Made by a program: the position numbers and the translations under genes. From positions 62,001-126,000 of the forward strand of contig NZ_JANFLS010000001.1 in NCBI RefSeq assembly GCF_024385465.1: a DNA stretch of 64,000 nucleotides, given 5' to 3'. Shown here in pieces: positions 36,341 through 56,492 of this stretch. The stretch comes from Arthrobacter sp. zg-Y844. Lineage in GTDB: Bacteria > Actinomycetota > Actinomycetes > Actinomycetales > Micrococcaceae. The notes under the pieces were generated by a model. It was not told the DNA's origin, did not search any database, and worked only from the letters and a program-made list of their open reading frames with translations. The first letter of the stretch is position 1. Each line of letters starts with the position of its first letter.

Positions 36341-36497
36341 GGTCCTCAACGGGTAGGTACCCGGCTTTCTTCTCGGTGATGCGAAGAGCTGGCGGAAGAA
36401 TCCGGTGTAATAGACTGGAATCTATTCAGCATACTAACTGCACACCCTCTCCGGTTTCGGTCTTGGCCGATCCCCCGGGTTGCCTGAAAGGACCATC
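36341..36497. other. Divergent promoter region of the polysaccharide cassette
   Basis: Noticeably more AT-rich than its surroundings, with TAATAGACT and CAGCATACTAACT around 36408-36440 and a small inverted repeat AATAGA (36409-36414) / TCTATT (36421-36426). It separates the minus-strand dehydratase from the plus-strand glycosyltransferases and probably carries both promoters. Confidence 0.45.
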
Positions 36498-49730: not shown

Positions 49731-51380
49731 TTACATCCGTTCGGGTGCGGAGACTCCCAACAGGCCCAGGCCGTTGGCCAGGACCTGGCGTGCGGCAAGG
49801 TTCAGCCACAGGCGGGTGCGGTTGGTGTCGGTGATTTCCTCGTCGCCCTGCGGTGCGATGCGGCAGGCGTCATACCAGCGGTGGTAGGTGCCGGCGATGA
49901 CCTCGAGGTGGCGGGCCACGCGGTGCGGTTCGCGGAAGGCACTGGCCTGCGCGACGACGCCGGGGTACTGCCCCAGCGCGGCCAGCAGTGCGCTCTCGGT
50001 GGGGTGGGTCAGCAGCGACGCGTCAAATGCGGAATCGTCGACGCCGGCAGCCTCGGCGTTGCGTGCCAGGGCATGGGTGCGGGCGTGGGCGTACTGGACG
50101 TAGAACACGGGGTTCTCGTTGCTGCGCTTGGTCAGCAGGTCCAGGTCAACGTCGATGTTGGAATCGGCGGAGAAGCGGGCCAGCGTGTAGCGGGCGGCGT
50201 CCACGCCTACGGCGTCGACCAGGTCCTCAAGGGTGACCACGGTGCCGGCGCGCTTGGACATGCGCACGGGCTTGCCGTCCTTGACCAGGTTCACCATCTG
50301 GCCGATGAGTACCTCGACGCACTCCGGGTCGTGGCCCAGGGCGGCTGCGGCAGCCTTCAGGCGCGCTACGTAGCCGTGGTGGTCCGCACCCAGCATGTAG
50401 ACGTTCAGGTCGAAGCCGCGCTCGCGCTTGTTGTGGATGTAGGCAATGTCACCGGCAATGTAGGCGGCGTTGCCGTCCGACTTAATGACCACGCGGTCCT
50501 TGTCGTCGCCGAACGCGGTGGAGTTCAGCCACCAGGCGCCGTCCTTCTCGTACAGGTTCTCGGAGCCCTTGAGCTGCTCCAGCAGCTTGGCAACCTGGCC
50601 GTTTTCGTGCAGCGAATCCTCGTGGAAGAACACATCGAAGTCCACGCCGAAGTTGTGCAGGGATTCCTTGATGTCGCCGAACATGAAGTCCACGCCCACG
50701 GCACGGAAACGTTCCTGCGCCTCGGCGTCGGGCAGCTCGGTGATGTTCGGCTCTGCGGCCAGCACGCGGTTGGCAATGTCCACGATGTATTCGCCGGCGT
50801 AACCGTCCTCCGGCGCGGGTTCGCCCTTGGCGGAGGCGAGCAGGGAGCGGGCGAAGCGGTCAATCTGCGCGCCGTGGTCATTGAAGTAGTACTCGCGGGT
50901 GACCTCCGCGCCCTGGGACTGGAAGACCCGGGCCAGCGCATCGCCGACGGCGGCCCAGCGGGTGCCGCCCAGGTGGATGGGGCCGGTGGGGTTGGCGGAG
51001 ACGAACTCCAGGTTGATCCGGGTGCCCTTGAGGATTTCCGAGGTGCCGTAGGCGGGTCCGGCGTCAACGATTGTCTTGACGAGTTCTCCGGCGGCACCGG
51101 CGTCGAGGGTGATATTCAGGAAGCCTGGACCGGCAATGTCGACCTTCGCAACACCGGCAATCTTTTCCAGCCGGCCCTTGAGGATCTCGGCGAACTGGCG
51201 GGGATTCATGCCGGCCTGCTTGGAGAGCTGCAGGGCGATGTTGGTGGCCCAGTCACCGTGGTCCCGGTTCTTCGGACGCTCCACGCGCACCTCCCCCGGC
51301 AGCTCGACGCTGAAGTCACCGGCATCGATGGCGTCTTGGAGGCAGGCAGTTACGGCGGAGGAAAGTTCTTCAGGAGTCAC
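49731..51380 (-). CDS. argS: Arginyl-tRNA synthetase
   Basis: The 549-residue class I synthetase charges tRNA-Arg. The HIGH motif is in [15 protein letters not shown] near residue 135, the KMSK counterpart reads [13 protein letters not shown] near residue 375 (MSK preserved), and the N-terminal tRNA-binding Add-1 domain and C-terminal helical anticodon domain ([12 protein letters not shown] onward) are complete. The start is GTG at 51380, 6 bases after a TATGCT box, predicting a leaderless operon mRNA for argS-lysA-hom-thrC-thrB. It is divergent from the flavin module. Confidence 0.97.
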
Positions 51381-51386
51381 CGGTTA

Positions 51387-51392
51387 AGCATA
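51387..51392 (-). promoter_or_regulatory. -10 box for leaderless argS-lysA operon
   Basis: TATGCT on the minus strand ends 6 bases before the argS GTG at 51380. No ribosome-binding site precedes that GTG. Confidence 0.55.
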
Positions 51393-51567
51393 GCCGGGTG
51401 CAGCACGGGTCCCGTTTTGTATGACAGGCCTTACGCTGTGCGGATCCGGCACCGGCACCAACGATGCGATGTAATGAAAGGGAACCGTTGAGCCCCGGGC
51501 CGGTTTCCACGCGTGTGCCTGTCGTGTGTGCCGTCCGGGATCAAAGCGCCCCACTCCAAGGAGAACC

Positions 51568-52068
51568 GTGAACCGAGCGAGCAAGTCCCTGCTGTGTGCC
51601 GCCGCCGGCCTGTCCCTGCTGTCTGCCGCCGGCTGTGCCGCGGGCGAGGAAACCGTCGACGCCGGCGAGGCCCCGGCGAAGTCCCCTGCAGCTTCCCCTG
51701 CTTCCTCCCCTGCTTCGTCCCCCGAGTCTTCCGCAGCATCCTCCCCCGACGCTGCAGCCGGTTCCGGCAGCTACGCCGACGGCGAGTACTCCGGCACCGG
51801 AAGCTACATCCCGCCGTCGGGCACTTCCGAGGACGTGGACGTGACGCTGCGGCTCGAGGGCAGCGTGGTGACGGAGCTGGAGGTGGAGACCTCGCAGAAG
51901 AACCCGACGTCCAAGCAGTACCAGCGTGAATTCACGTCCAATGTGAAGGAGCAGGTAGTCGGCAGGAACCTCGACGAGCTGGACGTGGACAAGGTGGCCG
52001 GATCCTCGCTGACCAGCGAGGGCTTCAACCGCGCCCTGGACGCCATCCGGTCCGAAGCTGCCTCCTAG
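51568..52068 (+). CDS. FMN-binding-domain lipoprotein (putative flavinylated electron carrier)
   Basis: Start GTG at 51568 has AAGGAG 5 bases before it. The 166-residue precursor has a lipobox LSAAGC (Cys23), a 30-residue Ser/Pro/Ala linker (about 37-65) that could span the wall, and a C-terminal FMN-bind domain. In this family ApbE attaches FMN to Thr or Ser in a D-x-x-(S)GA(T/S)-x-T motif; here residues 141-150 read DKVAGSSLTS, so Ser147 is the likely acceptor, with Ala and Ser in place of the usual Ser and Ala. The next gene is apbE and the third is a membrane flavin reductase, which supports a covalently bound FMN and an electron-transfer role outside the membrane. Confidence 0.88.
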   Translation: MNRASKSLLCAAAGLSLLSAAGCAAGEETVDAGEAPAKSPAASPASSPASSPESSAASSPDAAAGSGSYADGEYSGTGSYIPPSGTSEDVDVTLRLEGSVVTELEVETSQKNPTSKQYQREFTSNVKEQVVGRNLDELDVDKVAGSSLTSEGFNRALDAIRSEAAS

Positions 52069-52078
52069 GACAGCACCC

Positions 52079-52948
52079 GTGCATACCCTGGGGTTCGAGG
52101 CGATCGGCACGCAGTGGTCCCTCTCCACTGCCGCGCCTTTGGATTCCGCCACCCGGGCTGCTGTCGCGGACGTGGTCGACAGTTATGACCGCACCTATTC
52201 GCGCTTCCGCTCCGATTCCACGGTTGCGCGGATGGCCGAGGCTGCGGGCAGCTTTGCCCTGCCCGCTTCGGCCGCGCCACTGCTGCGGCTCTTCGATTCG
52301 CTGCAGCAGATCACCCGTGGCGCGGTCAACCCGCTGGTGGGGCGCTCGCTGGAGGTGTTGGGGTACGACGCCGGATACAGCTTCCTGCCTTCCGGACCAC
52401 CCGCTCCCGCAGCTGCTTGGACGGAGACCGTGTCCTGGACCACCGACGGCCGGGGAACCCTGATGACCACTGCCGTGCCGGTGACCTTCGATATCGGTGC
52501 CGCCGGTAAGGGCCAGCTGGTGGACCTGGTCAGCGGGGTCCTGGAAACCGCAGGTCACGGGGGATACGTGGTGGACGCCGGTTCGGACCTTCGCCATGCC
52601 GGCGCCGCTCCCCTGCGGATTGCGTTGGAGCATCCGTATGACGCGAAGCGGGCCATCGGGGTGCTGACCCTCTCGGACCGTGCACTGTGCGCCTCGGCCG
52701 TCAACCGCCGGCAGTGGGGAGACGGACTGCACCACGTGCTCGATGCCCGCACCGGTTTTCCGGTGGATACCGTGGCGGCCACCTGGGTGCTGGCCGCGGA
52801 CGCCATGACGGCGGACGGCCTGGCCACCGCCCTGTTCTTCGCCGAGCCGCAGGAGCTGGCCGGTGCGTTCACCTTTGACTATGTCCGGATGTTCACCGAC
52901 GGCCGGGCCGACTATTCCCCTGCAATGGCTGGAGTCCTATTCCCATGA
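52079..52948 (+). CDS. apbE: FAD:protein FMN transferase ApbE
   Basis: The 289-residue enzyme transfers FMN from FAD to Thr or Ser of client proteins with Mg2+. Start GTG at 52079. Family motifs are DRTYSRFRSDSTVARM near residue 38, FDIGAAGKGQLVD near residue 140, HHVLDARTGFPVD near residue 220 (FAD contact), and the metal-binding ADAMTADGLATALFF near residue 240. No signal peptide or lipobox is visible, unlike many ApbE proteins; see findings. Its end overlaps the next start by ATGA. The flanking genes supply both likely clients. Confidence 0.95.
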   Translation: MHTLGFEAIGTQWSLSTAAPLDSATRAAVADVVDSYDRTYSRFRSDSTVARMAEAAGSFALPASAAPLLRLFDSLQQITRGAVNPLVGRSLEVLGYDAGYSFLPSGPPAPAAAWTETVSWTTDGRGTLMTTAVPVTFDIGAAGKGQLVDLVSGVLETAGHGGYVVDAGSDLRHAGAAPLRIALEHPYDAKRAIGVLTLSDRALCASAVNRRQWGDGLHHVLDARTGFPVDTVAATWVLAADAMTADGLATALFFAEPQELAGAFTFDYVRMFTDGRADYSPAMAGVLFP

Positions 52949-54462
52949 GCGTTTCCGCCCCCGCCGCTCCCCGCACCCTGAACACCTTCCTCGGGCGCTG
53001 GACCATGTACCGGTTCACCGTCTGGGTGCTGCTGGCAATTGCTGCCTGGTCCTTTGTCCTTTCCTTCGCCGGGGTGCTGTTCTACACGCCGGCAGAACTG
53101 GGGGCGACGGCGGTGACGGCGGTGGCCTCCACCCTGGTCACCAGCCGTGTGGCCGGGCTGCTGCTTCGCACCCGTCCGCAGACCGACTCCTCGCTGATCA
53201 CCGGCCTGCTCCTGTTTTTCCTCTTCTGGCCCAGCACCGACGGCGCGCAGCTGGGTTGCGTGGCCCTTGCCGGGGCAGTGGCGACGGCTTCCAAATATCT
53301 CCTGGTGTTCCGGCGGCGGCACATCTTCAACCCGGCTGCGGCGGGGGCGTTTGCGGTGGCGGTGACCGGGCTGGGCGGTGCTGTCTGGTGGGTGGCGACT
53401 CCGGGCATGCTGATCGCTGTCCTTCCGGCCGCCGTCCTGGTCCTGTACCGGAACCGCCTGCTGCCAATGGCCGGGGTTTTCGCCCTTACTGCCGGGGTTG
53501 TTGTCCTGGCCCGCTTCCTCGCCGGCGGTGAGTCCGTCTCCTACGCCCTGGCCACCATCGTCGGAAGCTATCCGCTGGTGTTCCTGGCCGGCTTTATGCT
53601 CACCGAACCGCTGACCCTGCCGCCGCTGCGCGCCCAGCGCCTGGCGGAGGCCGTCGTCGTTGGGGTTCTCTTCGCCGTGCCGCTGTCCTTTGGCCCGGTG
53701 ATGATGTCCCCGGAGCTGGCGCTGCTGGTCGGGAACGTCCTTGCGTTCGTGATGGGCCAGCGCGGAGCTGTCCGGCTGCGGCTGCGCGAAACCCGGGAGC
53801 TGACCCCTACGTCCCGTGAGCTGGTGTTCGAGCCGGCACGTCCTGTCCGCTTCCGTGCCGGCCAGTACATGGAGCTTGCCGTGCCGCATTTTGAGCCGGA
53901 CGCGCGGGGGGCACGGCGTATTTTCAGCATCACTACTGCCCCGTCGGAACCCGGCACGGTGGCGGTGGGGCTGCGCGTGGCCGAACCGGGGAGCACTTTC
54001 AAGACCGCCCTGTTGAAGATGCGTCCCGGAGCGGAGGTGACCGCCACAACCGTTGCCGGCGACTTCCTCTTGCCGCGGGACGCACGGACACCGGTGCTGA
54101 TGATCGCTTCGGGTATCGGCATCACTCCTTTCATCAGCCAGCTGCGGCAGGTCCGCGGCGAGGACCGGGACATTGTGCTGGTCTACGCGGCATCCTCTGT
54201 TGACGAGCTTGCCTATGCCGGGGAGCTGCAGGAACTGGGGGTTCGGGTGCTGGTCTGCACGCCGTCGGATCCGGCGATCCCGGGCTGGACCTGGTTGGGT
54301 CCGAGGCTTCCCGATGCTGCGGTCCTGCGTGGGGAGGTTCCCGACCTGGCTGCTCGGACGATCTATGTTTCGGGTTCGCCGCAGGCGGTGGCTGCTGCCC
54401 GCAAGGCCGTCCGCGGTGCCGGCGGCAGGCGGATCCATACCGACCCGTTCCTCGGCTACTAA
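52945..54462 (+). CDS. RnfD/NqrB-like membrane domain fused to a ferredoxin-NADP reductase domain
   Basis: The 505-residue protein has eight or nine membrane helices (residues about 20-265) resembling RnfD/NqrB: SKYLLVFRRRHIFNPAAAGAF near residue 120 and GFMLTEPLTLPP near residue 215 follow the quinone-pump family pattern. A reductase domain follows: FAD site RRIFSITTAPSE near residue 335 (RxxS), NAD(P)-phosphate loop ASGIGITPFIS near residue 390, and IYVSGSPQAV near the end. It would pass electrons from NAD(P)H through FAD to the membrane and on to the flavin lipoprotein; direction and partners are inferred. Start ATG overlaps apbE. Confidence 0.88.
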   Translation: MSVSAPAAPRTLNTFLGRWTMYRFTVWVLLAIAAWSFVLSFAGVLFYTPAELGATAVTAVASTLVTSRVAGLLLRTRPQTDSSLITGLLLFFLFWPSTDGAQLGCVALAGAVATASKYLLVFRRRHIFNPAAAGAFAVAVTGLGGAVWWVATPGMLIAVLPAAVLVLYRNRLLPMAGVFALTAGVVVLARFLAGGESVSYALATIVGSYPLVFLAGFMLTEPLTLPPLRAQRLAEAVVVGVLFAVPLSFGPVMMSPELALLVGNVLAFVMGQRGAVRLRLRETRELTPTSRELVFEPARPVRFRAGQYMELAVPHFEPDARGARRIFSITTAPSEPGTVAVGLRVAEPGSTFKTALLKMRPGAEVTATTVAGDFLLPRDARTPVLMIASGIGITPFISQLRQVRGEDRDIVLVYAASSVDELAYAGELQELGVRVLVCTPSDPAIPGWTWLGPRLPDAAVLRGEVPDLAARTIYVSGSPQAVAAARKAVRGAGGRRIHTDPFLGY

Positions 54463-54617
54463 GGATCCGTTCCAGTTCCGGGACTCCCTAAAGCTCTGAG
54501 ACTCCCTAAAGCGGACCCGGGAAGACGGCAGGCCCGCTGGAAGCAGGCTCCTCCAGACGCGGGTCCGGGCTCGCACCCCTGCTGCCAGGGGTTCCGCGAT
54601 TCTCCTGAGCGGGCCGC
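54463..54617. other. Convergent intergenic region with direct repeat and hairpin
   Basis: GACTCCCTAAAGC occurs twice (54482-54494 and 54500-54512, period 18). Then CGGACCCG (54512-54519) can pair with CGGGTCCG (54560-54567), enclosing an inner CTGGA/TCCAG stem. It may act as a terminator for the flavin operon and the convergent DUF222 gene. Confidence 0.4.
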
Positions 54618-56492
54618 TCAGAACGGAGGCGCCTGTTCCGGTTCCTTCTGCTCGGGGTTCGTTCGCGCGTGATCCTTCTGCATATGCTCCGTCTGCCTGT
54701 GATCGGCCTGTCCATGTTCCTGTCGCGGGTCTTTCCGCGGATCAGATGCCGTGTCCGGGGGCCCGAGTTCCAGAAACGGCTCCGTGCGGTAGACGCGGCC
54801 GGCGGGCGACGTCCACTCAATCACCCCGGGGATTGGCTGGCAGGCTTTCCAGTAACCGAGGGTCTTGAACCGGTGGTGCCGGCGGCAGAGGTGTTCCAGG
54901 TTTCCGTGGTCCGTGGGTCCGCCTCGAGCCCAGTCGATGGTGTGGTCGATGTCCGCGTTTGCGGTGCTGACCCGGCAGCCGGGAAACCGGCAGGTTCCGT
55001 CCCTTGCGCGGAGCCAGCGGCGGAGCCCGGCCGGGACTTTTCTGCGCCGTCCCACCCCCAGGATCTCTCCGGTGTGCGGGTTTTGGGCCAGTCCGGTCCA
55101 TCCGACGGCGTTGCGGGCCAGTCGGCGGGCGGCTTCGGCGCTGATGGGGCCGTAGCCATGCAGTTCTGCCGGCTGGTCATTGGCTCCGAAGAGGGTTTCG
55201 GCGTTGATCAGGACCATGATTTCCGCCCTCGGGATGATTCCCTCGTCAGGTCCGGCGCCATCGTTACCGGTTCCGCGCGCACCTGTTGTCGCGCCGCCGC
55301 CGGTTCCGCTCTCACCGACTGCGCCGCCCACCCCGCCATTACCGGTCGAACCTGCGCCGCCCACCCCGCCAGCACCGGCTGAACCTGTGCCGCCCATCAG
55401 CAGCTGGGCCAGGATGTCGGCACGCAGCTGGTCCGTGGTCCGGGAATCTCCTCCCGCCTGCTCACCCCGCGCCGCAGTGCTGAGAGCCGTGTAAATCTGA
55501 TGCGCTTCCGCAGCACGCAGGTGAGCCGAGAGGCAGGACATACCGTCTTCTTCGCGGTCCAGGGTGACCTTGCGCTGCTCGAAAGCGGTCAGGTGCCGTT
55601 TGCTTATGGTCTCCGGGAACGTCTTTTCGCGCAGCCGCCGGGCCTTGGCCGAGAACTGCGCCCGCGTCTGACCCGGAGCTGCTGCCAGTAGGTCGGCCTC
55701 GAACCCGGGGAGTTTCTCCGCAGGAACGTTCTGGCACTGCTCCAGGACCACCTGGGCATGCTGGTACGAGAACCGCCCCTCCTCCAGCCCGGCCAGGGTC
55801 GCCGTATGGGTGCCGCACAGCTGCCCGGCCTCGCTCAGCAGCCGCTGACCCGTCACCTGCGGAACATTCAGGATGGCGGCACATTCGGCAGCCGCGAGGC
55901 TGAAAGCGATCCCGGGTTTATCCCGCTCCGACGGGTCGAAGAACTTGTCCCGGAAGATTTCCTCCATCCGGTGCAGTAGGCGGGACCGCTGCGCCTGCCC
56001 CCAGGAAACCAGATGCTCCACCCGGACCAAGGCCTCACCAACCGCGGCTTCGTCGAAGGCTTCAAGGTTCTGCAACGCAAGGGTCCCGGTGAAACCATCC
56101 GGGTAAGCGTCGGCAAAACTATCGGTTCCGGAGGCGCCGGCATCAGTGGTCTCGCCGTCAGGATTGAGGCTGGTGGCGGAAGCTCCGGAATCGGCCGGCT
56201 CGGCAGAGGAGTGGCAGGCATGAAGAGGGCCGGCATCAGGAACGGGATTGTCAGCTGACCGGGTGCCATGCTCGGCGTCGTTCTCCGGAGTGGCACTGGA
56301 AGTGTCTGCACTCGCGCCAACCGTCCCCTCAGGCCCGACAGGCCCGACAGGCCCGACAGCCAGTTCAGCCCGATACACCGCCAGGGTGACGGAAGGACAA
56401 GGCGGCTCTGTGTCGCCGGCCTGCTCTTCCGCCTGCTGGTTCTCACCGCTCTGCTCTTCAGTTGTCGGTTTCGTATTCCCGGGCTGATCCAT
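54618..56492 (-). CDS. DUF222 domain protein with C-terminal HNH endonuclease domain (13E12-like)
   Basis: The 624-residue protein belongs to the actinobacterial 13E12/REP-like family: a helical DUF222 domain (about residues 140-420), then an HNH module near 505-560 with CRFPGC, the DIDHTIDWARGGPT segment and NLEHLCRRHHRFK. The metal ligands and catalytic histidine are intact. The N-terminal 120 residues are acidic and low-complexity; a glycine-rich linker of GGVGGAGS type interrupts DUF222 near residue 375; the C-terminal 50 residues are charged, with many His, Gln and Lys. These genes occur in many copies in actinobacteria and are thought to be mobile or selfish, though the biology is unproved. 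Confidence 0.88.
   Translation of the reverse strand: MDQPGNTKPTTEEQSGENQQAEEQAGDTEPPCPSVTLAVYRAELAVGPVGPVGPEGTVGASADTSSATPENDAEHGTRSADNPVPDAGPLHACHSSAEPADSGASATSLNPDGETTDAGASGTDSFADAYPDGFTGTLALQNLEAFDEAAVGEALVRVEHLVSWGQAQRSRLLHRMEEIFRDKFFDPSERDKPGIAFSLAAAECAAILNVPQVTGQRLLSEAGQLCGTHTATLAGLEEGRFSYQHAQVVLEQCQNVPAEKLPGFEADLLAAAPGQTRAQFSAKARRLREKTFPETISKRHLTAFEQRKVTLDREEDGMSCLSAHLRAAEAHQIYTALSTAARGEQAGGDSRTTDQLRADILAQLLMGGTGSAGAGGVGGAGSTGNGGVGGAVGESGTGGGATTGARGTGNDGAGPDEGIIPRAEIMVLINAETLFGANDQPAELHGYGPISAEAARRLARNAVGWTGLAQNPHTGEILGVGRRRKVPAGLRRWLRARDGTCRFPGCRVSTANADIDHTIDWARGGPTDHGNLEHLCRRHHRFKTLGYWKACQPIPGVIEWTSPAGRVYRTEPFLELGPPDTASDPRKDPRQEHGQADHRQTEHMQKDHARTNPEQKEPEQAPPF

Follow-up and report, generated by a model that had tools for sequence, protein, structure and literature searches.

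A variant NQR/RNF-like electron-transfer cassette with a divergent predicted flavinylation motif in Arthrobacter and related actinobacteria

NQR/RNF-like systems, whose architecture and proposed direction of electron flow have been published, are known mainly from Actinobacteria (Meheust 2021, eLife, PMC8238504; Huang 2024, mSystems, PMC11334425). According to the accessible parts of these two papers they comprise an extracytosolic FMN-bind subunit, an ApbE and a single protein that carries an NqrB/RnfD-like membrane domain, devoid of a flavinylation site, together with a PF00175 domain. In the current analysis we have characterised a three-gene cassette of this design in a 64-kb stretch of DNA from Arthrobacter sp. 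zg-Y844 (the window; all coordinates are window positions). The first-pass annotation had put it forward as a candidate for an undescribed system, which it is not, as the design is the published one. The features that are new with respect to the known class are a predicted G-S-S (GSS) attachment motif, an altered ApbE loop and an ApbE without signal peptide paired with an exported substrate. None of the three is mentioned in the literature found, which did not cover supplementary cluster lists, and the cassette is therefore regarded as a variant that is new in motif and loop. No report on the cassette in Arthrobacter, or on a cytosolic ApbE with an exported substrate, was found among papers judged largely from titles and the openings of abstracts. 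The cassette is considered, with a probability of roughly 0.7, to be a one-way electron-export unit and a clade-specific variant of the NQR/RNF-like type. Its features are as follows.

51568..52068, plus strand: lipoprotein gene, GTG start
51988..52017, plus strand: motif DKVAGSSLTS, lipoprotein residues 141-150, with Ser147 as the predicted FMN-bearing residue
52079..52948, plus strand: apbE, GTG start
52945..54462, plus strand: fusion gene, ATG start; RnfD/NqrB-like membrane domain (about residues 10-270) and FAD/NAD(P) reductase domain (about 272-505), with motifs RRIFSI at 324, GIGITP at 390 and C-terminal DPFLGY at 500-505

The coordinates confirm the positions previously given for the three genes, all on the plus strand, and the ATGA overlap of apbE and the fusion gene is exact at 52945-52948; the first gap, earlier put at 11 bases, is of 10 bases (52069-52078). 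Purifying selection acts on each of the three genes, with median dN/dS of 0.16 for the lipoprotein, 0.19 for apbE and 0.13 for the fusion (36 pairs from 9 chosen genus loci); together with the recurrence of the cassette in relatives, this speaks against a chance arrangement.

The predicted folds of the fusion protein are of RnfD type in the membrane domain and of NqrF type in the reductase domain. The sole Pfam match over the cut-off is NAD_binding_1 (PF00175; 27.9 bits against 22) in the C-terminal part, and no RnfD/NqrB match (PF03116) is obtained at E ≤ 5. Among 53 fusion sequences, the set used for all counts on this protein, PF03116 is matched at E ≤ 0.1 in 14 and missed in 39. The folds, the NAD_binding_1 match and the 14 relatives bear out the earlier proposal of an RnfD/NqrB-like membrane domain joined to a reductase, and an NqrB/RnfD-homologous domain and a PF00175 domain are accordingly present on the same protein, as in the known class. 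The search for PF03116 plus PF00175 used in the published census does not retrieve the window protein, a matter of detection threshold and of no biological difference. Since the Pfam model misses 39 of the 53 sequences, the census probably undercounts the relatives of this cassette. RnfD-like domains are also encoded at thirteen loci of 8-18 kb from other actinobacterial classes (L233-L245); no lipoprotein, FMN-bind domain or ApbE was detected nearby and they have not been counted as members. In one genome (G437, locus L094) the fusion is broken by one in-frame TAA, the adjoining lipoprotein and ApbE frames being open.

The first gene product has a signal peptide, a lipobox-like AAGC with Cys23, an A/S/P-rich linker and an FMN-bind-like domain, and the lipobox is recognised in 76 of 78 relatives. 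The FMN-bind domain proposed by the first-pass annotation is upheld by the predicted fold and by 55 of 62 family lipoproteins that match FMN_bind at E ≤ 0.1; the protein's own Pfam score (19.6 bits) lies below the 22-bit cut-off. By lipobox, fold and Pfam, the cluster thus holds an exported, lipidated FMN-bind subunit beside its ApbE, as do NQR/RNF-like clusters. The tether between lipid Cys and domain has a median of 38 residues in the 62 sequences and is rich in A, S, T, G and P, which fits an arm moving between a membrane flavin and the outside.

The substrate motif given in the ApbE review, in the sections of it that were available, is D-x-x-[ST]-G-A-[ST], with Thr preferred over Ser at the attachment site. 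This canonical motif is absent from the family: Ala precedes the acceptor Ser in none of the 62 aligned lipoproteins. The attachment position and its two immediate neighbours read Ser-Ser-Leu in 62/62, with the attachment Ser in the middle, followed by Thr (61) or Ser (1) and then by an invariant Ser. Position -2 is Gly in 59 and Ser in 3, and position -3 is Ala in 50, Ser in 10 and Gly in 2. S-S-L is also read in sets of 63 and 78 lipoproteins, with overlap between the sets. In a different actinobacterial class the two cassettes L232 and L265 share the gene order and carry SGAT and TGAT, which makes the GSS motif look derived. Second lipoproteins of the family, apparently orphan, occur at L261 and L262 with the motifs LAGASGC and LAGSSGT and without ApbE in the short flanks.

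The identity of the middle gene as ApbE is secure (133.6 bits against a Pfam cut-off of 25.6). Alignment to solved ApbEs reveals that the enzyme keeps Lys144, Ser206, His219 and Asp246 and has an altered loop, CASAVNRRQW. The catalytic triad is Asp-Ser-His (ApbE review, consulted in part). A Lys and the Ser, His and Asp, assigned to this triad by motif, are retained across 142 cassette rows. The loop is mostly C-A-S-[AG]-x-N-R-R-x-W, with C in 135, A in 132, S in 139 and N in 133 of the 142; the best-matching solved ApbE has A-T-S-G-D-Y at this position, where T-S-G is canonical. The L232 and L265 enzymes, read by eye, have ATSGTY and ATSGSY and so keep TSG alongside their SGAT and TGAT substrates. 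Thr precedes the loop Ser in 29 of 30 ApbEs from other actinomycete genomes, the highest-scoring loci in a sample of the class (L181-L210), in whose D-loop the position of the cassette Asp is occupied by Glu (19) or Asn (11). Both pairs are found in one genome, G537, where the GSS cassette L084 has the ApbE loop CASAINRR and a separate locus (L263) encodes an SGAT protein next to an ATSGTAERG ApbE. As the distant SGAT/TGAT cassettes keep TSG and G537 has both pairs, a joint change of enzyme and substrate seems to have taken place. The motif and the loop seem to be coupled in sequence through few independent events, perhaps a single one since two canonical outgroup cassettes are seen, and the coupling is no proof of specificity.

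We suggest tentatively that these proteins form an orthogonal pair, in which a cytosolic ApbE of new specificity would place FMN on the GSS Ser before export and the RnfD-NqrF fusion would reduce it outside. It is somewhat unlikely that GSS is instead a neutral variant in an ordinary NQR/RNF-like system, acceptable to any ApbE and involving no separate specificity. Ser is a known acceptor for ApbE, and certain changes in the motif are tolerated (ApbE review, in its available sections), and the catalytic Ser, His and Asp are unchanged here. Drift expected of a neutral motif is, however, absent from the 62 sequences, GSS is paired with the changed loop, and the two pairs coexist in G537.

The ApbE appears to act on the inner side of the membrane. 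No signal peptide or lipidation site of the kind that marks an extracytosolic ApbE is found in it, and none of 143 loci (some genomes contribute two; 6 loci have no start codon in the scanned range) shows a hydrophobic leader ahead of the ApbE domain. The start codon lies within 12 codons of the domain in 130 of these loci. The hydropathy test is crude, as 56 of 78 lipoproteins score under a more lenient version. A single ApbE match is present in the own genome, so that the one candidate found for flavinylating the lipoprotein seems to be cytosolic; with no signal peptide on it, flavinylation would have to precede export. The 30 other actinomycete loci are also without a convincing signal peptide, one of them (L195) having an in-frame hydrophobic stretch with no preceding start codon in the 60 codons scanned. 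A narrow pattern for the canonical motif gave nothing convincing within their flanks, and the loci thus give no evidence of exported substrates. The ApbE review, as far as its text was available, mentions a cytosolic ApbE whose substrate is soluble.

The following route is proposed for the export unit. NAD(P)H would reduce FAD in the cytosolic NqrF-like domain and the RnfD-like membrane domain, through a non-covalent flavin, would pass the electrons across the membrane. FMN on Ser147 of the lipoprotein, put there by the operon's ApbE on the non-canonical GSS, probably in the cytosol, either ahead of export or while it proceeds, would collect them at the outer face. Carried by its flexible tether, the FMN could hand electrons to a small diffusible acceptor such as a ferric chelate, a quinone, a soluble flavin or oxygen. 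The reading of the first-pass annotation, that electrons are carried from NAD(P)H across the membrane to a covalent flavin outside, is partly supported: the mechanism is likely and the flavinylation predicted.

The three-gene order is widespread in relatives. A match to the fusion is encoded in 29 of 29 genus genomes, the own included (in two pieces in G022), in 86 of 295 family genomes representing 9 of 32 genera (E ≤ 1e-30, at most 5 candidates scored per genome) and in 28 of 394 class genomes (E ≤ 1e-20, 3 candidates per genome). In a collection of named species at least 573 stretches encode a relative, of which the best 80 were kept as loci; they include members of Arthrobacter, Paenarthrobacter, Pseudarthrobacter, Psychromicrobium, Agreia, Herbiconiux, Leifsonia, Mycetocola and Plantibacter. 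All three genes occur in the same order in 78 of these 80, and the remaining two (L156, L160) are cut off within apbE by the end of the contig. The published survey reports, for the genome set it used, 127 clusters in 127 genomes (Meheust 2021, PMC8238504, available part), a count not comparable with the 573 as the sets differ and the full cassette was checked in the best 80 alone. The holders are possibly several hundred actinobacterial species, mostly invisible to Pfam-based surveys. No lipoprotein match was obtained for G056 or for five family members that lack a fusion match, in a run that included no positive-control genome; in another scan the same lipoprotein query matched 15 of 246. 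A contig titled Vibrio cholerae strain 35D contig00018 (L121) has the cassette in a Micrococcaceae argS-lysA neighbourhood, its fusion being 52% identical to that of the window; the contig is actinobacterial, its title being wrong or owed to contamination.

Twenty representatives, one each, from about 150 neighbour clusters were scanned for an acceptor. No conserved acceptor gene was found next door among them; two have no family, the others are mostly housekeeping or unrelated, and the neighbours differ by lineage, from which the unit looks self-sufficient and may use a diffusible acceptor. Some lineages have a Pyr_redox_2-type enzyme (cluster 30, 8 loci), an amine-oxidase-type flavoenzyme (cluster 97, 3 loci), a P-type cation ATPase (cluster 65, 5 loci) or a two-component pair with an FtsX-type permease (clusters 21, 36 and 37; 11, 7 and 7 members) near the cassette. 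None of these is general, and they weigh against a clean negative for the acceptor.

A role in iron assimilation, Fe(III) being reduced outside for a ferrous transporter, is unlikely. It draws on the VIT1 iron transporter found in 6 of 127 published NQR/RNF-like clusters (Meheust 2021, PMC8238504). In the present data an iron-transporter family is encoded by 0 of the 20 scanned representatives, which leaves room for a role at a distance, and it is argS that stands near the cassette, at most two genes away and on the opposite strand, in 64 of 109 loci. A Bifidobacterium iron-limitation screen has an apbE mutant, in a gene that may or may not be of this cassette type, that was sensitive to ferrous chelators.

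Several observations weigh against the export unit as proposed. The covalent FMN is a prediction, and the motif departs from the consensus, with no Ala before the acceptor and with Ser where Thr is preferred. Asp is present at position -6 in 28 of 62 lipoproteins. In one model substrate the change of motif A to V or G to A lowered flavinylation to about half, though removing the Asp changed little (ApbE review, sections available). Foldseek gave no match at E ≤ 0.001 for the lipoprotein, with IscU ranked first and 8p2a 18th, and a second structural comparison interleaved IscU and lipoate-ligase folds with FMN-bind. An IscU/SufU or lipoate-ligase identity was rejected, FMN-bind being preferred on Z (11.4 against at most 9.3), Pfam and motif. 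The L232 and L265 proteins encoded before ApbE match the lipoprotein profile at E of 0.72 and 0.29 only, start with a membrane anchor and seem non-lipidated, and are counterparts by position and motif. No acceptor is supported by the lineage-dependent neighbours. In G056 (L072) the fusion lies beside argS with no lipoprotein match and no adjoining ApbE, one ApbE being on another contig; the two partners seem to have been lost together, and the fusion may not always need them.

The departure from the consensus, and a predicted cytosolic ApbE facing an exported substrate, would also suit a lipoprotein with loose or absent flavin, the ApbE being a FAD pyrophosphatase, like Treponema Ftp of the same family (source seen in part), or acting elsewhere. 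This is improbable in view of the strictly conserved Ser-Ser-Leu and the joint presence of ApbE and lipoprotein in 78 of 80 loci. In the own genome the lipoprotein profile finds a single match, and no other FMN_bind substrate turned up at E ≤ 0.001, in a search that also misses the cassette's own divergent lipoprotein. That the cytosolic ApbE flavinylates the membrane domain of the fusion is very improbable, as [ST]GA[ST] is absent from 52 of 53 such domains, the window's included (exception L144), and the class is reported without such a site (Huang 2024, PMC11334425, available part).

Upstream of the operon and divergent from it are argS and then lysA; downstream are a convergent HNH/DUF222-type gene and a tRNA-Arg (protein names by eye from translations). 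A standard sigma-70 promoter was not found within 51300-54800. One candidate upstream element has been identified.

51464..51476, plus strand: promoter-like block ATGCGATGTAATG, from an alignment of 15 chosen upstream regions, partly conserved in the genus

The block has one exact match within the window and another with one mismatch at 36400; a longer pattern derived from it has a single occurrence in the genome, and a regulon defined by it has been rejected. Elsewhere in the window, 23099-23550 matches the Rfam cspA thermoregulator (85.9 bits, gathering 78), here in an actinobacterium.

Flavinylation of GSS, if it occurs, would mean that the ApbE consensus as now accepted is drawn too narrowly and that lists of flavoproteins compiled by motif overlook a widespread branch in actinobacteria. 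An ApbE/GSS pair would also be of use in flavin-tagging, provided it did not cross-react with ApbE/SGAT. An exported substrate served by an ApbE lacking a signal peptide poses the questions of where the flavin is attached and whether the export machinery can carry a flavinylated chain, and these may extend to the 30 other actinomycete loci.

The cassette can be compared with four kinds of system. Other actinomycete clusters in which an FMN-bind protein adjoins ApbE (L260, L263) have a partial match to the fusion profile nearby, mostly to its reductase part, and are perhaps of the published MsrQ-like kind, a label that is unconfirmed; they differ in their SGAT motif and TSG loop. In Listeria-type extracellular electron transfer (PplA, FmnB) a flavinylated lipoprotein outside the membrane serves as electron carrier, as is proposed for the cassette. 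Electrons reach PplA there through an Ndh2/quinone route, whereas the donor here would be the fused RnfD-NqrF-like protein. With Na+-NQR and RNF the cassette shares homologues, by fold, of NqrB/RnfD, NqrC/RnfG and the FAD part of NqrF. NqrF carries a ferredoxin domain; in the cassette the reductase domain directly follows the membrane domain without one, no further Na+-NQR/RNF subunits were found in the three genes or the 20 neighbour representatives (the rest of the genome not being searched), and presumably no ion-pumping semicircle is formed. From the NQR/RNF-like systems, whose design it shares, the cassette is set apart by GSS in place of [ST]GA[ST], by the altered loop of an ApbE with no visible signal peptide and by a membrane domain that PF03116 misses in the window protein.
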